The translations under genes and the position numbers were made by a program. From an uncultured Pelagibacteraceae bacterium (GTDB lineage: Bacteria > Pseudomonadota > Alphaproteobacteria > Pelagibacterales > Pelagibacteraceae), in assembly GCA_902599335.1 (NCBI GenBank), contig CACKFA010000009.1:1-35880 (forward strand): 35,880 nt of DNA. Direction: 5' to 3'. Shown piece after piece: positions 7,934 to 30,900 of the stretch (position 1 is its first letter; each line of letters opens with the position of its first letter). A model generated the notes under the pieces. That model did no database searches and was not told where the DNA came from. It worked only from the letters and a program-made list of their open reading frames with translations.

Positions 7934-8431
7934 ATGATAATTACATGTCCAAATTGTAACAAGCAATTTAAAATTGATAAGTCTTTAATACCAGACGAAG
8001 GTAGAGATTTGCAATGTGGATCATGTAATCATATTTGGTTTTATAATATCCAAGAAAAAAATAATGAAACACTAGAGTTGAAACATGAAATTATTAGTGA
8101 AGACGTTGAAACAAAAGCTGAAAATAAAGAGGATAAAATAGAAGAGAAACAACAACCAAATGAAATAATTAAAACTGAAATAAATAATAAAAAAAAAGAA
8201 AAAAATTTAGATGAACAAAAAAATACAATTACGCTTAATAAAACGAAAAATAAGGGAAATAAGTTTTTTTCTTATTTAATAGTATTTATTATATCTTTTG
8301 TAGCATTAGTTATCTTGCTAGATACTCTAAAAACTCCGCTAATTAATGTTTTTCCAGGATTAGAAATTATACTATTTAACCTTTTTGAAACATTGCAGGA
8401 TATAAAACTATTTATTATAGACCTAATTTAA
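7934..8431 (+). CDS. MJ0042-type zinc-ribbon membrane protein
   Basis: A 165-residue protein with an N-terminal zinc ribbon of the MJ0042 type: CPNC (5-8) and CGSC (28-31) within about 36 residues. A long charged Lys/Glu/Asn-rich linker (about 40-110) follows, then a hydrophobic segment at about 112-131 and a second moderately hydrophobic C-terminal stretch. The zinc ribbon would face the cytoplasm. Similar proteins are common in alphaproteobacteria; their role is unknown. An extended -10-like sequence (TGG followed by TATATA, 7918-7926) sits only 7 nt before the ATG, so the mRNA may be leaderless. It is followed after 6 nt by nhaA. Confidence 0.8.
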   Translation: MIITCPNCNKQFKIDKSLIPDEGRDLQCGSCNHIWFYNIQEKNNETLELKHEIISEDVETKAENKEDKIEEKQQPNEIIKTEINNKKKEKNLDEQKNTITLNKTKNKGNKFFSYLIVFIISFVALVILLDTLKTPLINVFPGLEIILFNLFETLQDIKLFIIDLI

Positions 8432-21028: not shown

Positions 21029-21642
21029 GATTTTTTTGTAGATGTGCCTGCTGAAACTATAAATTTAGATGCTTCCTCAAATGACATGTTTAAATATATT
21101 ACATCTTCTATTGGGAACATTAATAAAAAGCCGCTAGTTGGATTGGGTGTTGTTGGAACAAAAACATTTATTAAATTCTTTCCAGTTTTTTGAGCCATTT
21201 CACCTTTATTTTCTTTAGTAGCAAAACCAACAGCCCAAACACCTTTTCTTGGATATTCAATTAAAACTACACTTCTTTTTCCATCATCTTTTTTTGAGAA
21301 AGTTTCAGTCATTTGAACAATTGCAGAATAAACGGTTCTTAAAAAAGGAATTCTTTTGAATAAATCATCTATCAATTTAAGAATTCTTCTTCCAAAAAAT
21401 GATAAAGAAAGACCACCAACAATAGTTATGAGTAATATTGAAATAATGATTTCAACTCCAGGAATATTAAATGGTAAATAACTGTTAGGATTAATGTTCT
21501 TTGGAATTAAATTAGACGAAATACCTATTAAAATCTTAGTTAAATATAACGTAAAACCGATTGGTACTAATACAACAACACCAGTAATAAAATAATTTCT
21601 TAAAGTTAATGAAAAAGATTTTTTTGTGCTCTTTTTTGCCAT
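21025..21642 (-). CDS. DUF502 family membrane protein
   Basis: A 205-residue protein with two N-terminal membrane spans (about 14-36 and 58-84) and a soluble C-terminal domain. The DUF502 features are TGVVVLVPIGFTLYLT, RIPFLRTVYSAIVQMTETF, VVLIEYPRKGVWAVGFAT and NVFVPTTPNPTSGFLLMFP. Its biochemical function is unknown. Its presence beside recG and sdhE is a gene neighbourhood I recall from alphaproteobacteria. Confidence 0.88.
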   Translation of the reverse strand: MAKKSTKKSFSLTLRNYFITGVVVLVPIGFTLYLTKILIGISSNLIPKNINPNSYLPFNIPGVEIIISILLITIVGGLSLSFFGRRILKLIDDLFKRIPFLRTVYSAIVQMTETFSKKDDGKRSVVLIEYPRKGVWAVGFATKENKGEMAQKTGKNLINVFVPTTPNPTSGFLLMFPIEDVIYLNMSFEEASKFIVSAGTSTKKS

Positions 21643-21650
21643 ATTATAAA

Positions 21651-21728
21651 TTAACTATAACTTGCGTATATAACAAAAACAATTGCAATGATAAATATTA
21701 CAATTAAAATTTTGTTATTAAGATTCAT
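21651..21728 (-). CDS. Possible 25-residue single-span membrane peptide
   Basis: A 26-codon frame (ATG 21728, TAA 21651) encodes a short polar start (MNLNNK), a continuous hydrophobic stretch of about 16 residues and a short polar end (YASYS). It ends 8 nt before the DUF502 start on the same strand and could be translated with it. The length is so short that chance cannot be excluded in this A+T-rich sequence, where hydrophobic Ile/Val/Phe codons are frequent. Confidence 0.3.
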   Translation of the reverse strand: MNLNNKILIVIFIIAIVFVIYASYS

Positions 21729-21759
21729 GATAAAATATTAATATCAATTTTAAGAAGCT

Positions 21760-22587
21760 ATGGATAGAAGAAAATTTTTAACATATGTGGGTTGTGGCTG
21801 TGGCAGTATACTTTTACACTCATGTTCTACAGCTCCAATAACTGATCGAAAACAATTGAAAATAATTCCTGAGGCTAAATTAAATGCACAGGCCGCTCTA
21901 ATCTACGAAAAAGTAAAAGAAAAAGAGAAAATGAGTGACGATAAAAAAACTTTAAATGAAATAATAGAAATTGGAAAGAAAATGGAAGATTCGATTAGTG
22001 AATATTTTTATAGAGCTAACTTAACTGATCCTACAGCTAATTTTGATTGGGAATATATTTTAATTGATAATAAGAAAGTAAAGAATGCTTGGTGCATGCC
22101 TGGAGGAAAAATTGCAGTTTATACTGGAATATTAGATGTCACTAAAAATAAAAATGGTTTAGCTGCTGTCATGGGGCATGAAGTTGCACACGCTGTTGCT
22201 AAACATTCAGTGGAGAGAGCTAGTAGAGGTGTTTTGCTTAATACTGGAGCAAAAATAATTGATATTGCTAGTGGTGGAGTTTTATCTGACATCAATAGAA
22301 CAACTGGAATGGATACAGTTGGTATGCTTGCTCAATTAGGAATTATGAATCCGTTTAGTAGAAAACAAGAAAGTGAAGCAGATTATTTAGGAATGATTTT
22401 TTCATCCTTATCAGGTTACGATATTAGAGAAACAGTTAAAATATGGGAAAGGATGAAGGAGTCCAATAAAGGCAAGGAACCTCCCCAATTTATGAGTACT
22501 CACCCATCATCAGACACAAGAATAAAGCAACTCAATGAATGGATGAATGAAGTTATTTTAGATTATCCACCAATTAATTTAAGTTAA
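21760..22587 (+). CDS. M48 family zinc metalloprotease, exported lipoprotein
   Basis: A 275-residue protease of the M48 group related to periplasmic LoiP/YcaL/BepA-type enzymes. The zinc motif HEVAH is at 140-144, with the third ligand Glu in RKQESEADYLGM. The N-terminus has Arg-Arg at 3-4 followed by a hydrophobic segment and LLHSCS, so Cys22 is a likely lipidation site; the twin Arg may indicate Tat export. Such proteases degrade misfolded outer-membrane proteins, so envelope quality control is the likely role. It stands alone between a divergent small-ORF/DUF502 unit and convergent tRNA-Lys. Confidence 0.9.
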   Translation: MDRRKFLTYVGCGCGSILLHSCSTAPITDRKQLKIIPEAKLNAQAALIYEKVKEKEKMSDDKKTLNEIIEIGKKMEDSISEYFYRANLTDPTANFDWEYILIDNKKVKNAWCMPGGKIAVYTGILDVTKNKNGLAAVMGHEVAHAVAKHSVERASRGVLLNTGAKIIDIASGGVLSDINRTTGMDTVGMLAQLGIMNPFSRKQESEADYLGMIFSSLSGYDIRETVKIWERMKESNKGKEPPQFMSTHPSSDTRIKQLNEWMNEVILDYPPINLS

Positions 22588-22596
22588 ATGAATTAG

Positions 22597-22672
<76 letters not shown>

Positions 22673-22756
22673 CCAAATTATTCAAATTGAATAGTTGTTA
22701 TATACAGAATTATAATTTTTTTTCAAATGACAATTTTAACCAAATCTTTAGACCTT

Positions 22757-23869
22757 CTACAACTTATCAATGTATTTATCGTGAAATTGATCAAAAGTGC
22801 CTTCATTAATATTTTTTCTGATCGAGGCCATTAATTCTTGATAAAAATTAATATTGTTTAGCGTCAATAACATTGAGGCTAGAATTTCATTAGTATTAAA
22901 TAAGTGATTTAAGTAATTTTTTGAATATTTATTTAAATTAAGATTTTTACAATTTGGATCAAGTGGTGCGTTGTCATTTTGATATTTGTTATTTTTAATA
23001 TTGATTCTTCCCTGCCATGTAAAGGCCAAACCTGTTCTACCGGATCTAGTTGGCAAAACACAGTCAAACATATCTATACCTCTTTTTACAGCACCCAAAA
23101 TATCTGATGGTGTTCCAACACCCATTAAATAGTGTGGTTTTTCAAAAGGTAAGTTTTCCTTAATATCATCTAAAACGTTAAACATTTCATGTTGAGTTTC
23201 TCCTACAGCTAATCCTCCGAGAGCATACCCATCAAAACCAATTTTAATTAACTCTTGAAGAGATTTTAATCTTAAATCTTTAAAAAGACCTCCTTGAACT
23301 ATACCAAATAACGCTTTTTGTGGATTATTTCCAAATGCCGCTTTAGATCTTTCTGCCCAGTAAAGTGATAAATCCATAGATTTTTTGATTACATTATAAT
23401 CATTAGTTTTTTTTGGACACTCGTCCATAATCATCACAATATCAGAATTTAAACCCAACTGAATTCGGATACTCTCTTCTGGACTTAAGTAAAATTTTTT
23501 ACCATCAACATGGGAGTTAAATATGGCTCCCTTTTCTCTATCAATCTTATTCAATTTTGAAAGAGACATTACTTGAAAACCACCAGAGTCAGTTAAAATA
23601 GGTAAATCACAATTCATAAAATTATGAAGTCCACCAGCAGATTCAATTCTTTCAACACCAGGGCGTATCATTAAATGATAGGTATTTGAAAGAATTATTT
23701 CAGAACCTGTTTTTTTTATATCATCTATTGTGCAAGCTTTTACAGTTGCCTGTGTTCCTACAGGCATAAAAGCTGGAGTTTGTATATTGCCTCGATGTGT
23801 CTCTATTAAACCACACCTAGCAAATTTATCTTTTTTTAAAACATTGAAGGCAAATTTTTTTAATGCCAT
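22757..23869 (-). CDS. tgt: tRNA-guanine transglycosylase, zinc site degenerate
   Basis: A 370-residue TIM-barrel enzyme that exchanges guanine-34 of GUN-anticodon tRNAs for preQ1 in queuosine synthesis. Catalytic and substrate residues are intact: Asp94 in TDSGGFQVMS, IMDEC (147-151) with the preQ1-contacting Asp and Cys, GGLAVGE (218-224) of the bacterial preQ1 type, and nucleophile Asp269 in FDCVLPTR. The C-terminal zinc site is not. Aligned with the E. coli pattern C-x-C-x2-C...H, only Cys307 remains; the other positions are Asn309, Leu312 and Asn338. Surrounding sequence (SKNYLNHLF, NEILASMLL) aligns well, so this is substitution and not truncation. It starts 8 nt after the cyclophilin stop, with no queA between. 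Confidence 0.93.
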   Translation of the reverse strand: MALKKFAFNVLKKDKFARCGLIETHRGNIQTPAFMPVGTQATVKACTIDDIKKTGSEIILSNTYHLMIRPGVERIESAGGLHNFMNCDLPILTDSGGFQVMSLSKLNKIDREKGAIFNSHVDGKKFYLSPEESIRIQLGLNSDIVMIMDECPKKTNDYNVIKKSMDLSLYWAERSKAAFGNNPQKALFGIVQGGLFKDLRLKSLQELIKIGFDGYALGGLAVGETQHEMFNVLDDIKENLPFEKPHYLMGVGTPSDILGAVKRGIDMFDCVLPTRSGRTGLAFTWQGRINIKNNKYQNDNAPLDPNCKNLNLNKYSKNYLNHLFNTNEILASMLLTLNNINFYQELMASIRKNINEGTFDQFHDKYIDKL

Positions 23870-23877
23870 TAATAAAA

Positions 23878-24438
23878 TTATTGAGATTTGAAACTAATAA
23901 TCTTATCTGGATCAGTTACAGCACCGTTATTGTTTTGATCGCCTCTTTTTATTTTATCAACAAATTCCATTCCGTCGAGCACTTTTCCAAAAACTGTATA
24001 TTGACGATCTAAAAAAGGAGCTGGCTGAAAACAAATAAAAAATTGGCTATTTGCACTATTTGGATCTTGAGCTCTCGCCATTGATAAAGTTCCTCTATCA
24101 TGTGGTAGACTACTGAATTCTTGCTCTAAGTCAGGAAAATCTGATCCACCCATTCCAGCTCTTCTAAGATCAAAATCTTTTGATTCTGAATTTCCAAATT
24201 TAACATCACCTGTTTGAGCCATAAATCCATCTATAACTCTGTGAAAAACAACGTTATCGTATTTACCACTATTTGCTAATTCCTTAATTCTTTTAACATG
24301 ATTTGGTGCAACATCCTCAAACAATTCAATTTTAACTTCACCATCTTTTAATTTTAATATCATTATATTCTCCCCAGCTATTGATTGATTAGTAATAAAA
24401 AAAAACAAAATAAGTATTTTAATAAAAATTTTATTCAT
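23878..24438 (-). CDS. Exported peptidyl-prolyl cis-trans isomerase (cyclophilin type)
   Basis: A 186-residue cyclophilin with a signal peptide (about 1-21), so probably periplasmic. Landmarks are VVFHRVIDGFMAQTGD (the catalytic Arg region), NSANSQFFICFQPAPFLD (about 126-143) and YTVFGKVLDGMEFVDKI. It accelerates proline isomerisation during protein folding. It overlaps coaD by 8 nt and is followed by tgt, so it is part of the gyrA-coaD-ppi-tgt unit. Confidence 0.94.
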   Translation of the reverse strand: MNKIFIKILILFFFITNQSIAGENIMILKLKDGEVKIELFEDVAPNHVKRIKELANSGKYDNVVFHRVIDGFMAQTGDVKFGNSESKDFDLRRAGMGGSDFPDLEQEFSSLPHDRGTLSMARAQDPNSANSQFFICFQPAPFLDRQYTVFGKVLDGMEFVDKIKRGDQNNNGAVTDPDKIISFKSQ

Positions 24439-24925
24439 ATTTCTCTTTTAAAGACTTGATCGTACTTTTGGTAGTAAATTTTTTAATATCACCTTTTAAT
24501 TTAACAATCTCTTTTACAAATCTAGATGAAATAATTTGATTTTCTACATCAGACATTAAAAAAATTGTTTCAATATTTTGGTTCAATTTTCTATTCATAC
24601 CAGCTAATTGAAATTCATATTCAAAATCAGATACAGCTCTCAATCCTCTTAAAATAATGTTTGATTTGTATTTTTTACATAAATCAGTGGTTAAAGAACC
24701 AAATGATACTACTTTTATTTTTTTCCTATTTAACTTTAGATCTTTAAATAAAGCTTTATTTACTATTTCTATTCTTTCATCAGAACTAAATAGATAATTT
24801 TTGTTACTTTCATCTGAGACACCTACCACAATTTTATCAAATAATTTTAATGATTTTTTGATTACATCTATATGTCCGAAAGTTATTGGATCAAAAGTTC
24901 CAGGATAAATTGCAATTTTACTCAT
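24431..24925 (-). CDS. coaD: Phosphopantetheine adenylyltransferase
   Basis: A 164-residue nucleotidyltransferase that makes dephospho-CoA from 4'-phosphopantetheine and ATP. YPGTFDPITFGHIDVI (7-22) carries the (T/H)xGH nucleotide-binding motif as TFGH. LRGLRAVSDFEYEFQLAGMN and ISSRFVKEIV are also family signatures. Length is typical. It overlaps the gyrA stop by one base (TAATG). Confidence 0.96.
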   Translation of the reverse strand: MSKIAIYPGTFDPITFGHIDVIKKSLKLFDKIVVGVSDESNKNYLFSSDERIEIVNKALFKDLKLNRKKIKVVSFGSLTTDLCKKYKSNIILRGLRAVSDFEYEFQLAGMNRKLNQNIETIFLMSDVENQIISSRFVKEIVKLKGDIKKFTTKSTIKSLKEKYE

Positions 24926-27504
24926 TAAATTAAATTATCATCAATTTTAATGGCTGTAACAACTTTTTCTTCTCCTGATAACTTAATTATTCTAACCCCT
25001 TGGGTATTTCTTCCTGCAGTCCTAATTTCTTTAACAGCCACTCTAATAACCCTTCCTTTATTAGTAGAAATTAAAATTTCATCACCTTCAAAAACTGGAA
25101 ATGATGAAGTAATATTTCCATTTCTTGGTGAATTTACTATTCCTATAATTCCTTTACCACCTCTGTTAGTAACTCTGTAATCAGTATGTGAAGTCTTTTT
25201 TCCATAACCATTTTCACTAATTGATAAAACAAATTTGTCTTTTGCTCTTAATTCAGATTTTTCGTCTTTTGATTTTTTTCCGTTTTTATTAATTTTATCG
25301 TTATCAATAACTGACAAAGATACTATTTGATCATTTGATGCCAACTCTAATCCCTTAATTCCTTTAGAAGATCTGCCTTTAAAGACTCTTAACTTTTTGG
25401 CTTCAAATCTAATACATTTTCCAAATTTTGTACTTAAAATTACATCCTGATCATCTTTACAAATTTTAACACCTACAATTTTATCATTGTTATCTAATTT
25501 CATCGCAATTTTTCCAGATGCATTAATTGATGAAAAGTCTTCTAAACTATTTTTTCTTACTTTGCCTTGAGCAGTAGCAAATATAATTTGATAATTTTTT
25601 AAATCAGTTTCATCTTCAGGCATTGGCATAATTGAGCTTATTGCTTGGTGACTCTTTAAAGGTAAAATATTAAATAAAGACTTACCTTTAGATGATGATG
25701 AACCCTCTGGAATTTTCCATGCTTTGATCTTGTAAACTAAACCCTCAGTAGAAAAGAAGAGTACTGAAGTATGAGTATTTACAGACAATGTTTGAACAAC
25801 AGAGTCTTGATCTCTAGTTGTTATGCCTGATTTTCCCTTGCCACCTCTTTTTTGTTTTTTAACTCCGTCTAAAGAACCTCTTTTTATGTATCCTTGTAAT
25901 GTAACTGTAATTATTACCGATTGTTTTTGGATAGTTTCCTCAATATCATAATTTAATACAGCATCTATAATTTTAGTTCTTCTTGGTATAGCAAACTTCT
26001 CTTTGATATTTTTTAGTTCTTCGCTGATTACTTTTAGAAGTTCTTTTTTTGATGAAATAATCTTTTTATATTTAGTGATTAATTCAGCTAATTTTTTAAT
26101 TTCAATTTCGATCTCATTTATTCCTAAAGCAGTTAATTTTTGAAGTCTTAATTCTAATATAGCTAAAACTTGTGGTTCAGATAAAGAATAAAGGTTTTTG
26201 CCTTTTTTTCCCTCTACTAAAGAAATTAATTTTTGTGATTTATTTATTTTCCATTTAGTTTTTAAAATTGATATTTTAGCATCATCGGGTGTTTTAGATG
26301 ATCGAATAATTTTTATTATTTTATCTAGATTTTCAACCGACACTGATAATCCGATTAATATATGTGCTCGTTCTTCAGCTTTTTGAAGATCAAATTTAGT
26401 TTTCTTAATAACTACATCTTCTCTAAAAGTTAAAAAATTAGATAAAAAATCTTTTAAGGTACACGTTTGAGGTTTTCCCTCAACAATAGCTAAAGTATTA
26501 AAACCAAACGAACTCTCTATTTGTGTATTTTTATATAATTGTCTCTTTATAGTTTCTGGTTCTACACCGTTTCTTAAATCTATTGCTACTCTGATACCTT
26601 CTCTATTTGATTCGTCTCGAATATCTCTTATACCTTCAATCTTTTTTTCTCTTACTAACTGGGCAATCCTTTCATTTAAAACAGATTTGTTAACTTGATA
26701 CGGTATTGAAGTTATTACTAGTCTTTCACGACCATTTTTTTGTTGTTCAATTGAGATTTCTCCTCTTATCTTAAAGGACCCTCTTCCATTGTTATACCCT
26801 TGTTTAATTACATCTTTACCTATAATTACACCACCAGTTGGAAAATCTGGACCAGGTATATGTTTCATTAATTCTCTAATTTTAATATCTTTATTATCTA
26901 TTAAGGCCAAAGTTCCATCAATAATTTCACCTAAATTGTGAGGAGGTATACTTGTTGCCATACCAACAGCGATACCACCAGCTCCATTTACTAATAAATT
27001 TGGAAACTGTGCTGGTAAAACACTAGGTTCTTTCTCAGTTTCATCATAATTACTTTTGAAAGAAATTGTATTTTTTTCAATATCATCAATTAAATATTGA
27101 GAAACTTTTGATAAGCGAGTTTCGGTATATCTCATTGCTGCAGCAGGATCACCATCTATAGAACCAAAATTTCCTTGCCCTTGAATCAAAGGTAGACTCA
27201 TAGAGAAATCTTGTACCATTCTTACCAAAGCATCATAGACAGATTGATCACCATGAGGGTGATATTTACCAATAACATCTCCAACTATTCTTGCAGATTT
27301 TCTAAATTGTTTAGACCAATCGTAACCACCTTTATACATTGCATATAAAATTCTTCTATGAACAGGTTTTAATCCATCTCTTACATCAGGAAGTGCACGA
27401 CTTACAATTACACTCATTGCATAAGAAAGATATGATGAGCTCATCTCATCATGCATTGAGATTAATTTTATATTTTTATCTTTAAACTCTTCAAAATTTT
27501 TCAT
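24925..27504 (-). CDS. gyrA: DNA gyrase subunit A
   Basis: An 859-residue type II topoisomerase subunit that cuts and rejoins DNA to introduce negative supercoils. The catalytic Tyr126 is in AAAMRYTE. The C-terminal beta-pinwheel contains [12 protein letters not shown], a GyrA box, which separates it from ParC. At the position of E. coli Ser83 it has Gln87, in [10 protein letters not shown], while Asp91 (E. coli Asp87) is kept. The C-terminal domain is somewhat Lys-rich, with no acidic tail seen. It lies 5 nt after ssb and overlaps coaD by one base. Confidence 0.97.
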
Positions 27505-27509
27505 AGAAA

Positions 27510-27959
27510 TTAAAATGGAATTTCATCATCCATATCTGACACTTGTGAAGAATCCTCAATATTATTTTGTTGAGTTGTGTCATTTTGAATTCCACCACCA
27601 GATTTTCCTCCGCCCAACATCGTAAGTGAAGAATTGTATCCCTGTATAACTATTTCAGTTGAATATTTGTCTTGTCCCGATTGTTCATCTTTCCATTTTC
27701 TTGTTGTAAGTTGTCCCTCAACATAAACTTGAGCTCCTTTTTTTAAGTATTGTTGAACAACATTTACTAAACCTTCGTTAAATACAACTATACGGTGCCA
27801 CTCCGTTTTCTCTTTTCTTTCACCTGTGTTTTTATCTTTCCAGGATTGACTTGTTGCAAGGCTTAATCGGGCTACACTTTTGCCATTTACCATTTGTTTA
27901 ATTTCTGGATCTGCGCCCAAACGACCAATTAATAATACTTTATTTAAACTTCCAGCCAT
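27510..27959 (-). CDS. ssb: Single-stranded DNA-binding protein
   Basis: A 149-residue SSB. The OB fold covers about 1-108 ([51 protein letters not shown]). A short Gly/Gln/Asn linker follows, then the acidic tail DMDDEIPF, which recruits repair and replication partners. It is divergent from uvrA and directly upstream of gyrA, so it is the lead gene of the ssb-gyrA-coaD-ppi-tgt unit. Confidence 0.97.
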
Positions 27960-27989
27960 AATATTTAATATTTGTTAAATTAGTTAATT

Positions 27990-28008
27990 AGAATTATATC
28001 ACAATTCT
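27990..28008. promoter_or_regulatory. Inverted repeat between ssb and uvrA
   Basis: In the 88-nt divergent gap an inverted repeat has arms AGAATT and AATTCT around 7 nt. It could be an operator acting on both the ssb and uvrA promoters. It does not match the alphaproteobacterial LexA box, which I recall as a GAAC/GTTC direct repeat with a 7-nt spacer. No binding protein can be named, and chance is a serious alternative. Confidence 0.25.
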
Positions 28009-28047
28009 TCTGAATATTAATTTTATTAACTCAAAGCAACTAAAATT

Positions 28048-30900
28048 ATGATGAAAAAGATAGTTATTAAGGGCGCCAAAGAACATAATTTGAAGAATGT
28101 TACTGTAGAAATTCCAAAAGACAAATTTGTGGTCATTACGGGTCTATCAGGGTCAGGAAAATCATCTTTAGCTTTTGATACTATCTACGCAGAAGGTCAA
28201 AGAAGATATGTAGAAAGTTTATCAGCTTATGCACGTCAGTTTTTAGATAAAATGAAAAAACCAAATGTTGATCTTATTGAAGGATTAAGTCCAGCTATCG
28301 CAATAGAACAAAAAAATACCTCAAAAAATCCAAGATCTACTGTTGCAACTGTAACCGAAATTTATGATTACATGAGGGTATTATACGCTAGAGCAGGTAT
28401 CCCGTATTCACCATTTACAGGCAAACCAATAACCTCCCAAACAATTACACAGATAGTAGATTTAGTTAAAAAATTACCAAAAAAATCAACAATATATATT
28501 TACGCCCCAGTTGTAAGAGGTCGTAAAGGTGAATATAAAAAAGATATTTTAAGCTACAAAAGAAGAGGATTTAGAAAAATTAAAATTGATAATGTTTTAT
28601 ATGATATAGAAAAATCACCCAATCTAGATAAAAAACTTAAACATGATATTTCAATCTTAGTAGATAGAATAGTTTTAAATTCAAAACTTGGTAACAGATT
28701 AGCCGAAAGTATTGAAACAGCTGTAAATTTAGCCAACGGTTTAGTCTTTGTCGAATATGAGGACGAAACTCTTCCTCAAAAATTTAGAAAAATTGAAAAG
28801 TTAATTTACTCTACAAAGTTTGCCTGCCCTGAAAGTGGTTTTACAATTGAGGAAATTGAGCCAAGACTTTTTTCATTTAACAGCCCTTATGGAGCTTGTG
28901 AAGAGTGTGAGGGAATTGGAATGAAATTAAATGTTGATCCAAATTTAGTTGTTCCAGATGAAAGAAAAAGTTTAGCTGACGGAGCGATTGAACCTTGGTC
29001 AAAATCAACTACATTATATTATGCTCAAACTTTAGCATCATTAGCAAAACATTATGGTTTTTCTTTAGATGAAAAATGGAAAAAATTACCAAAAAAAATT
29101 AAAGATATTATTCTTTATGGTTCAGATGAAGATGAAATTAAATTTAATTATGATGATGGATATGAGAAATATTCTTACAAAAAAACTTTTGAAGGTGTAA
29201 TTAATAATCTTGAAAGAAGATTTTTAGAGTCAGATAGTGAATGGAAAAGAGAAGCTATTGCCGAATATCAATCAGATACAGCATGTGAAGCATGTAATGG
29301 TGACAGATTAAAAGAAGAGGCATTATGTGTAAAAATCAATGATCTTAATATTAGTGAAGTAACAAATAAATCTATTTTAGATGCAGCAGAATGGTTTAAA
29401 AATTTAGAGAATAATCTTGATAAAAGACAATTTAAAATTGCAGAACATGTTTTAAAAGAAATAAATGAAAGATTAAATTTTCTTCTAAACGTCGGATTAG
29501 ATTATTTAACATTATCTAGAGAATCTGGAACTTTATCAGGCGGAGAAGCTCAAAGAATAAGATTAGCTTCACAAATTGGGTCTGGCTTAACAGGAGTATT
29601 ATATGTTTTGGATGAGCCTTCAATTGGATTACATCAAAAAGACAATGTGAAACTTATAAATGCATTAAAAAGATTACGTGATCTCGGTAATACAGTCATT
29701 GTTGTTGAACATGATACAGAAACAATGGAAAATGCAGATCATATTATTGATCTTGGCCCTGAAGCTGGGAGTAATGGTGGCGAGATAACTGCACAAGGAT
29801 CATACGAAGAAATTAAAAAAGATAAAAAAAGTATTACAGGTCAATATCTTGCAAATAAAAAAACAATTGAAATTCCTAAAACTCGACGTTTAGCTAAAAA
29901 TGGAAGATTTGTAGAAATAAATGGTGCAAGTGGAAATAATCTAAATAATGTAAATCTTAAAATTCCAACTGGGACTTTTACCTGTGTAACTGGTGTATCA
30001 GGTAGTGGTAAATCTACTTTAATATTACAAACACTATTTCATGCTTTAAATTTAACATTGAACAATAAAGCAAGAAAATCACCTAAATCATTTAAAGGTT
30101 ATAAGGGTGTAGAATTGATTGATAAAATAATTGATATTGACCAGTCACCTATTGGTAGAACTCCAAGATCAAATCCAGCAACATACACTGGTGCTTTTGG
30201 ACCTATTAGAGATTGGTTTACAAGCCTACCAGAGTCCAAAACAAGAGGATATAAGCCAGGAAGATTTTCTTTTAATGTTAAAGGAGGTAGATGTGAAGTT
30301 TGTGAGGGTGATGGTGTAATCACATATGAAATGCATTTTTTACCTGATGTTTATATACAGTGTGATGAATGTAAAGGTACCAGGTACAATCGAGAAACTT
30401 TGGAAATTAAATTTAAAGGTAAAAGTATTGCTGATGTTTTAGATATGTCAGTTGATGAAGGGTGTGAATATTTTGATAATATATCTAATATAAAAACAAA
30501 ACTATTAACTCTTAAAAAAGTAGGATTGGGTTATATAAAAATTGGTCAGCAAGCAACTACGCTATCAGGAGGTGAAGCACAACGAATTAAGCTTGCAAAA
30601 GAACTTTCAAAAAGATCTACAGGTAGAACGATGTACATTTTAGATGAACCAACTACAGGTTTACATCAACATGATATAAAAAAACTTTTAGAGATACTTC
30701 ATACTTTTGTAAAACTTGGTAATACAGTAGTTGTGATTGAACACAATTTAGATGTTATTAAAACGGCCGACTACATTGTGGATATGGGTCCTGAAGGAGG
30801 TGTAAAGGGTGGTAATATTGTCGCCGAAGGAAAACCTGAAGAAGTATGCAAAGTTAAGGAGAGTTATACTGGTCAATTTTTAAAACCTCTTTTAAACTAG
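28048..30900 (+). CDS. uvrA: Excinuclease ABC subunit A
   Basis: A 950-residue damage sensor of nucleotide excision repair with two ABC ATPase modules. The Walker A motifs are GLSGSGKSS (32-40) and GVSGSGKST; both signatures read TLSGGEAQR. The C-terminal zinc module is intact (CEVCEGDG...CDECKGTR). In the first zinc module (CPESGF...CEEC) the second Cys is Ser263, a change I recall in other alphaproteobacterial UvrA proteins. Two adjacent ATGs (28048 and 28051) are possible starts. Length is normal. No terminator is evident before the next gene. Confidence 0.97.

Follow-up and report, generated by a model that had tools for sequence, protein, structure and literature searches.

The window, by which we mean the whole stretch of 35,880 nucleotides analysed here, carries on its reverse strand a tgt gene that lies beside ppi, coaD and gyrA (Table 1). 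The product scored 458.4 bits against the Tgt profile TIGR00430 (cut-off 306.75), which places it within that family, and 478.9 bits against PF01702. When aligned with the Tgt of Z. mobilis (1pud and others), with which it shares the whole fold, about 55% identity, the catalytic and pocket residues and the positions of the interface hot spot, the C-x-C-x2-C motif and distal His of that enzyme paired without gaps with Cys307, Asn309, Leu312 and Asn338. Thus, in contrast to the four zinc ligands of Z. mobilis, three are replaced in the window Tgt, which lacks the C-x-C-x2-C plus distal His that define a zinc-bearing Tgt. The catalytic and base-binding residues D94, D269, D149, Q192, G218-L220 and M249 are all present, and D149-E150-C151 (DEC) and GGLAVGE (218-224) are unaltered. 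A preliminary description of this DNA had reported the gap-free loss of three of the four ligands from a protein with an intact active site; the alignment and the residues read bear this out, and the span it gave (22856..22951) agrees with the codon positions in Table 1. A second, zinc-bearing Tgt in the same genome was considered and set aside, the window tgt being the only Tgt match in its own assembly (92.6% complete). An Rfam scan of positions 21500-28100 yielded nothing beyond a tRNA next to tgt.

Table 1. Features of the tgt locus, in positions of the window.
Feature	Position	Strand	Basis
tgt, 370 aa, one of four zinc ligands left	22757..23869	-	ORF, profile match and alignment
Cys307 codon, sole ligand retained (Z. 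mobilis Cys318)	22949..22951	-	alignment
Asn309 codon, ligand position 2 (Z. mobilis Cys320)	22943..22945	-	alignment
Leu312 codon, ligand position 3 (Z. mobilis Cys323)	22934..22936	-	alignment
Asn338 codon, ligand position 4 (Z. mobilis His349)	22856..22858	-	alignment
Catalytic Asp94 codon (Z. mobilis Asp102)	23588..23590	-	alignment
Catalytic Asp269 codon (Z. mobilis Asp280)	23063..23065	-	alignment
ppi, peptidylprolyl isomerase, conserved neighbour	23878..24438	-	best profile matches under curated cut-offs
coaD, conserved neighbour	24431..24925	-	profile match
gyrA, conserved neighbour	24925..27504	-	profile match
ppi-tgt gap, 8 bases; site of queA in sister family f2 and S. meliloti	23870..23877	.	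gene-order comparison

Ligand states are given below as the four residues at positions 307, 309, 312 and 338, so that CCCH denotes the full set and CNLN the window Tgt. In 121 rows, made up of the query and its top 120 homologues, CNLH was found 92 times, CNLN 27 times and CKLH twice, and the best 80 of 388 named Pelagibacteraceae contigs were distributed similarly (CNLH 70, CNLN 8, CSLH 1, YNLH 1). Close relatives therefore generally share Asn309 and Leu312, and the replacement of His by Asn at position 338 marks a subset of them. Sequencing or assembly error was rejected as the source of these residues, since identical ones recur in many contigs and in named single-cell genomes. A Tgt match was present in 177 of the 197 genomes of the order that were searched, and 110 of these 177 supplied the SAR11 loci for comparison: 96 from family f1, which we take to be Pelagibacteraceae because its Tgt is 91-98% identical to that of named records, and 14 from its sister family f2. 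Two ligands remained at 80 of these loci, one at 14 and none at 16; three or four were found at 0 of 110. The full set in close relatives, which the preliminary description had named as the finding that would point to an error, is thus absent from SAR11 as sampled. All 14 f2 loci read SNCH, the 27 loci of f1 outside the window's genus read CILH, CLLH, CILN, VCSH or ICSH, and within the window's genus (69 loci) the states ranged from CNLH, at 36 loci, to VILN, VKLN, VRLN, VNLN and VLLN. The retained Cys therefore varies by clade between positions 307, 309 and 312, and His has given way to Asn in more than one clade, a pattern that we would expect if no ligand position mattered.

The alignment across SAR11 and other alphaproteobacteria that the preliminary description had proposed for mapping the losses placed them throughout SAR11 and beyond it. 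Outside SAR11, 88 alphaproteobacterial loci were scored, drawn from 142 genomes of the class, 129 of which, including two from SAR11, had a match; about 40 matches, most of them fragments or with low scores, were left out and one genome (G223) was counted twice. The full set was present at 66 of the 88 and incomplete at 22, with three ligands at two loci, two at 11, one at eight and none at one (at one locus, L245, a gap at a ligand position was scored as lost). Since 66 of 88 are CCCH, Tgt in this class does not generally do without zinc, and its zinc site is retained in between two thirds and three quarters of the sampled alphaproteobacterial families. In a sample of the phylum (90 loci, from 90 of the 147 genomes in which a match was present), CCCH was found at 61 of 61 loci outside the class and at 14 of 29 inside it, the other 15 being incomplete; some of these 29 repeat genomes of the 88. 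The ligand-poor Tgt that had been described as unusual is thus shared with a quarter of the other alphaproteobacterial loci and with rhizobia, and in the phylum sample it occurs only within the class, none of the 61 loci outside it being incomplete. Named records show the same: Sinorhizobium meliloti (strain Ak57) has SCTN, Methylobacterium bullatum SCAN and Oceanibacterium hippocampi SCSH, and CCCH is found in Paracoccus ferrooxidans, Sphingomonas parapaucimobilis, Magnetococcus massalia and E. coli. Of the top 120 homologues of one SCSH protein, 56 are CCCH and 64 incomplete. The top 120 for a Rhizobiaceae-like protein included no CCCH and 103 SCAN and were headed by a Mesorhizobium-named cluster of 1169 sequences, also SCAN. 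Like the window Tgt, the S. meliloti and Mesorhizobium proteins keep one of four ligands, have Asn at the last position and an intact active site; they differ in keeping the second Cys rather than the first. A quickly built tree of 141 rows, computed without the ligand columns and with 60 of its 138 inner branches open, called for at least eight changes between full and incomplete sets, a rough minimum. Judged from these residues, ligand loss is peculiar neither to the window genome nor to SAR11. Phage records were also seen to match Tgt (20, all at less than 60% identity); the short unannotated phage records H43-H53 carry bacterial-looking Tgt genes, and some may be host DNA.

This distribution bears directly on the suggestion, made in the preliminary description, that the loss reflects life in low-metal water. 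Were SAR11 specifically adapted to metal-poor seawater in this way, the loss of ligands at all 110 SAR11 loci would accord with it, as would the ribosomal proteins bL31 and bL36 of the same genome (L291 and L290, contig C1), which contain no Cys and are thus zinc-free forms. However, the Tgts of Mesorhizobium, S. meliloti and Methylobacterium are equally ligand-poor, so that low-metal seawater is not a sufficient cause, and ribosomal proteins free of zinc are the rule across the class: in alphaproteobacteria nearly every zinc-binding ribosomal protein has had its zinc form replaced by one of this kind, Magnetococcus keeping most zinc forms (PMC3087516). Other zinc sites in the window are also retained, namely a HEVAH protease, the second zinc module of UvrA with its four Cys, and a zinc-ribbon protein. 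We therefore consider a seawater-specific adaptation unlikely. Positions 7934-8431 encode the protein with the intact four-Cys zinc ribbon (PF13717), from which it follows that the genome has not abandoned structural zinc in general. In the first zinc module of UvrA (C260, S263, C284, C287), Ser occupies residue 263 (positions 28834-28836, forward strand), a Cys in solved UvrA. By analogy, the loss in Tgt would belong to a release from structural zinc across the class, of the kind seen in the ribosomal proteins, a release that is not total.

The queuosine (Q) pathway around Tgt was surveyed across the order, in 28 f1 and 30 f2 genomes (58 in all). QueA was found in none of the 28 f1 genomes and in 27 of the 30 f2 genomes, QueG in none and 25 respectively, and the PF02592 transporter family (QPTR) in all 28 and in 23. 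QueC and QueF were not found above cut-off in any of the 58; weaker matches in other frames are probably MnmA- and FolE-like. The gene order in f2 is gyrA-coaD-ppi-queA-tgt, and S. meliloti likewise has ppi-queA-tgt. A QueA ORF there directly precedes tgt. In the window, by contrast, only 8 bases separate ppi from tgt, and the two genes are direct neighbours at 80 of 80 loci from named Pelagibacteraceae, so that the loss of queA took place at that spot. The S. meliloti record (CP090106.1, L382) is a 3.7-Mb sequence labelled plasmid pSymB that bears ppi, queA and tgt; in strain 1021, tgt and queA are reported to lie on the main chromosome, and the label may be wrong. Queuine specificity of the window Tgt was considered and rejected: its GGLAVGE does not match GG[LS][AS]G, the pocket of queuine-inserting bacterial Tgts of the Chlamydia type (rule of PMC11570991), V222 is found at 96 of 96 f1 loci, and the pocket is of the preQ1 type, as that paper has already published. 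The same source describes Pelagibacter with Tgt and QPTR, without QueA and QueG and with a preQ1-type pocket, and proposes preQ1 as the base; Bartonella henselae is grouped there with Pelagibacter, and both resemble the window in having Tgt and the transporter, neither QueA nor QueG, and a GGLAVG pocket (PMC11570991). Residue 152 (positions 23414-23416, reverse strand), which follows DEC immediately and lies by the base pocket, is Pro at 96 of 96 f1 loci and at 0 of 14 f2 loci, where it is Thr throughout. As a sign of changed substrate this Pro was considered and set aside, being present also in seven of the 88 other alphaproteobacterial Tgts (six CCCH, one CCLH).

With the rest of the pathway gone from Pelagibacteraceae, tgt could itself be inactive or decaying and the tRNA no longer modified, as the preliminary description had allowed; the absence of QueA and QueG from all 28 f1 genomes and the ligand changes still continuing inside the genus lean that way. 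The pattern of substitution argues against it. Whole-gene dN/dS was 0.03-0.10 in 17 of 18 pairs, including nine of ten zero-ligand pairs, the exceptional pair standing at 0.21 with about nine changes altogether. Over residues 296-350, in the former zinc subdomain, two pairs reached 0.19-0.21, on at most six changes of either kind each, and the rest stayed at or below 0.14 (dS being saturated in two). Frames are full-length, and of 11 active-site positions checked ten are invariant at 110 of 110 SAR11 loci, the eleventh being F or Y. The retention of tgt in most genomes of the order and of a QPTR-family transporter in every f1 genome is likewise at odds with decay, and ligands have been lost also where QueA is present. 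QueA matches were found in the genomes of 20 of the 22 ligand-poor Tgts outside SAR11 and of 64 of the 66 full-set ones, a match being counted at E 1e-3 with fragments included. As QueA acts on preQ1-tRNA, the product of Tgt, and 21 of the 22 ligand-poor genomes have a single Tgt match (G230 has a second, weaker one), the Tgt in such genomes presumably works. Taken with the predicted fold described below, these sequence comparisons make decay very unlikely.

For one ligand-poor Tgt the evidence is genetic. In S. meliloti 1021 tgt is needed for symbiosis and for a preQ1-dependent effect (PMC3568095), and this published work shows that S. meliloti tgt works, the SCTN sequence having been read from strain Ak57 and the mutants made in another strain. 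Our literature search found no paper joining these genetics with the one-ligand state of the S. meliloti Tgt.

Structure prediction pointed the same way. AlphaFold2, which is blind to metals and largely tracks the family alignment, gave mean pLDDT values of 93.4 (window Tgt) and 93.7 (zero-ligand relative); block means across residues 301-340 were 92-98. The window model superposed on 1pud with an rmsd of 1.2 across 367 residues and has the TIM-barrel fold of Tgt. The modelling of residues 295-345 called for in the preliminary description thus predicts that the fold is retained over this region; it shows a predicted fold compatible with ligand loss, and such compatibility says nothing on the absence of zinc. 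The dimer interface, which had been suggested to be changed, appears from its residues to be largely as elsewhere. In Z. mobilis its hot spot consists of Phe92, Trp326, Tyr330 and His333 (PMC5395182), and the equivalents F84, Y315, Y319 and H322 of the window Tgt are retained at 95-96 of the 96 f1 loci, Tyr at the Trp326 position being the commonest residue in other alphaproteobacteria too (66 of 88). Only the neighbouring residue 321 (positions 22907-22909, reverse strand), beside two interface residues, is altered, with Asn at 94 of 96 f1 loci and His at 14 of 14 f2 loci.

It might be envisaged that metal is still bound, by Cys307 in combination with further side chains or between the subunits of the dimer, and the frequent occurrence of Cys307 with His338 in the window's genus (CNLH) would suit such a site. 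However, the Cys that is kept differs from clade to clade, and at the 16 loci without any of the four ligands the sole His or Cys common to all within residues 296-346 is H322, an interface residue. Continued metal binding of this kind is thus, like decay, quite improbable, and one- or two-ligand sites could still hold metal weakly. The remaining alternative, that the ligands went as a side effect of QueA loss or of a switch in substrate from preQ1 to queuine, would account for both losses occurring in the window's family and has very little to commend it, given that f2 has QueA in most genomes yet SNCH at every locus, that elsewhere no coupling between ligand loss and QueA loss was seen (QueA with 20/22 ligand-poor versus 64/66 full sets, Fisher p 0.26), and that the pocket residues C151 and V222 are unaltered.

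The window gene encodes an intact Tgt, under purifying selection and with one of four zinc ligands, which is unable to form the four-ligand site and very likely works. On the sequence comparisons and the models, we consider it probable that it folds and works without structural zinc. The best reading of the wider pattern would be a repeated release of Tgt from structural zinc in alphaproteobacteria, as for their ribosomal proteins. We infer that the class tolerates the loss of structural zinc and that the small C-terminal subdomain came to be held by the packing of side chains; all four ligand positions would then have been free to change repeatedly and in differing orders, until no ligand remained in some SAR11 lineages. 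Tgt is predicted still to swap guanine 34 of tRNAs with GUN anticodons for a deazaguanine base. In Pelagibacteraceae this base is probably preQ1 taken up from outside, as PMC11570991 proposes; in the absence of QueA and QueG it would remain the end product.

The parallel with the ribosomal proteins described in PMC3087516 is close in that the zinc-binding Cys are gone, the protein is kept and the phenomenon is class-wide; the M. massalia Tgt, likewise, is CCCH here where Magnetococcus keeps most ribosomal zinc forms. It differs in that the ribosomal proteins exist as whole C- and C+ gene variants, partly spread by horizontal transfer (PMC3087516), whereas in Tgt it is individual ligands that differ from one clade to the next. 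The truncated Q pathway of Pelagibacter is already known (PMC11570991). For loss of the Tgt zinc ligands, a search of open-licence papers, general and for SAR11, found nothing, and a text search of the main text of PMC11570991 returned no mention of zinc. The Tgt zinc site has been called a hallmark or highly conserved (PMC6165067, PMC4425180), and TGT is stated to require zinc for activity (PMC9508795, citing a 1995 mutagenesis paper).

Should alphaproteobacterial Tgts prove to work with a single ligand or with none, this requirement (PMC9508795) would not be general. There would then be a natural graded series of one enzyme with four, three, two, one and no ligands for asking what structural zinc does, and the same series could show how a protein comes to manage without it. 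QueC is a zinc enzyme and QueG an iron enzyme. Tentatively, and with somewhat less confidence than not, we suggest that structural zinc is dispensable in Tgt and has been shed many times, and that Pelagibacteraceae may stand at the metal-free end: without QueC and QueG, an importer and a zinc-free Tgt would mark GUN tRNAs with preQ1 as the final base. With Tgts that work on one ligand or none, a tRNA-modifying enzyme would join the zinc-free ribosomal proteins of the class, in cells that are among the most abundant in the ocean.
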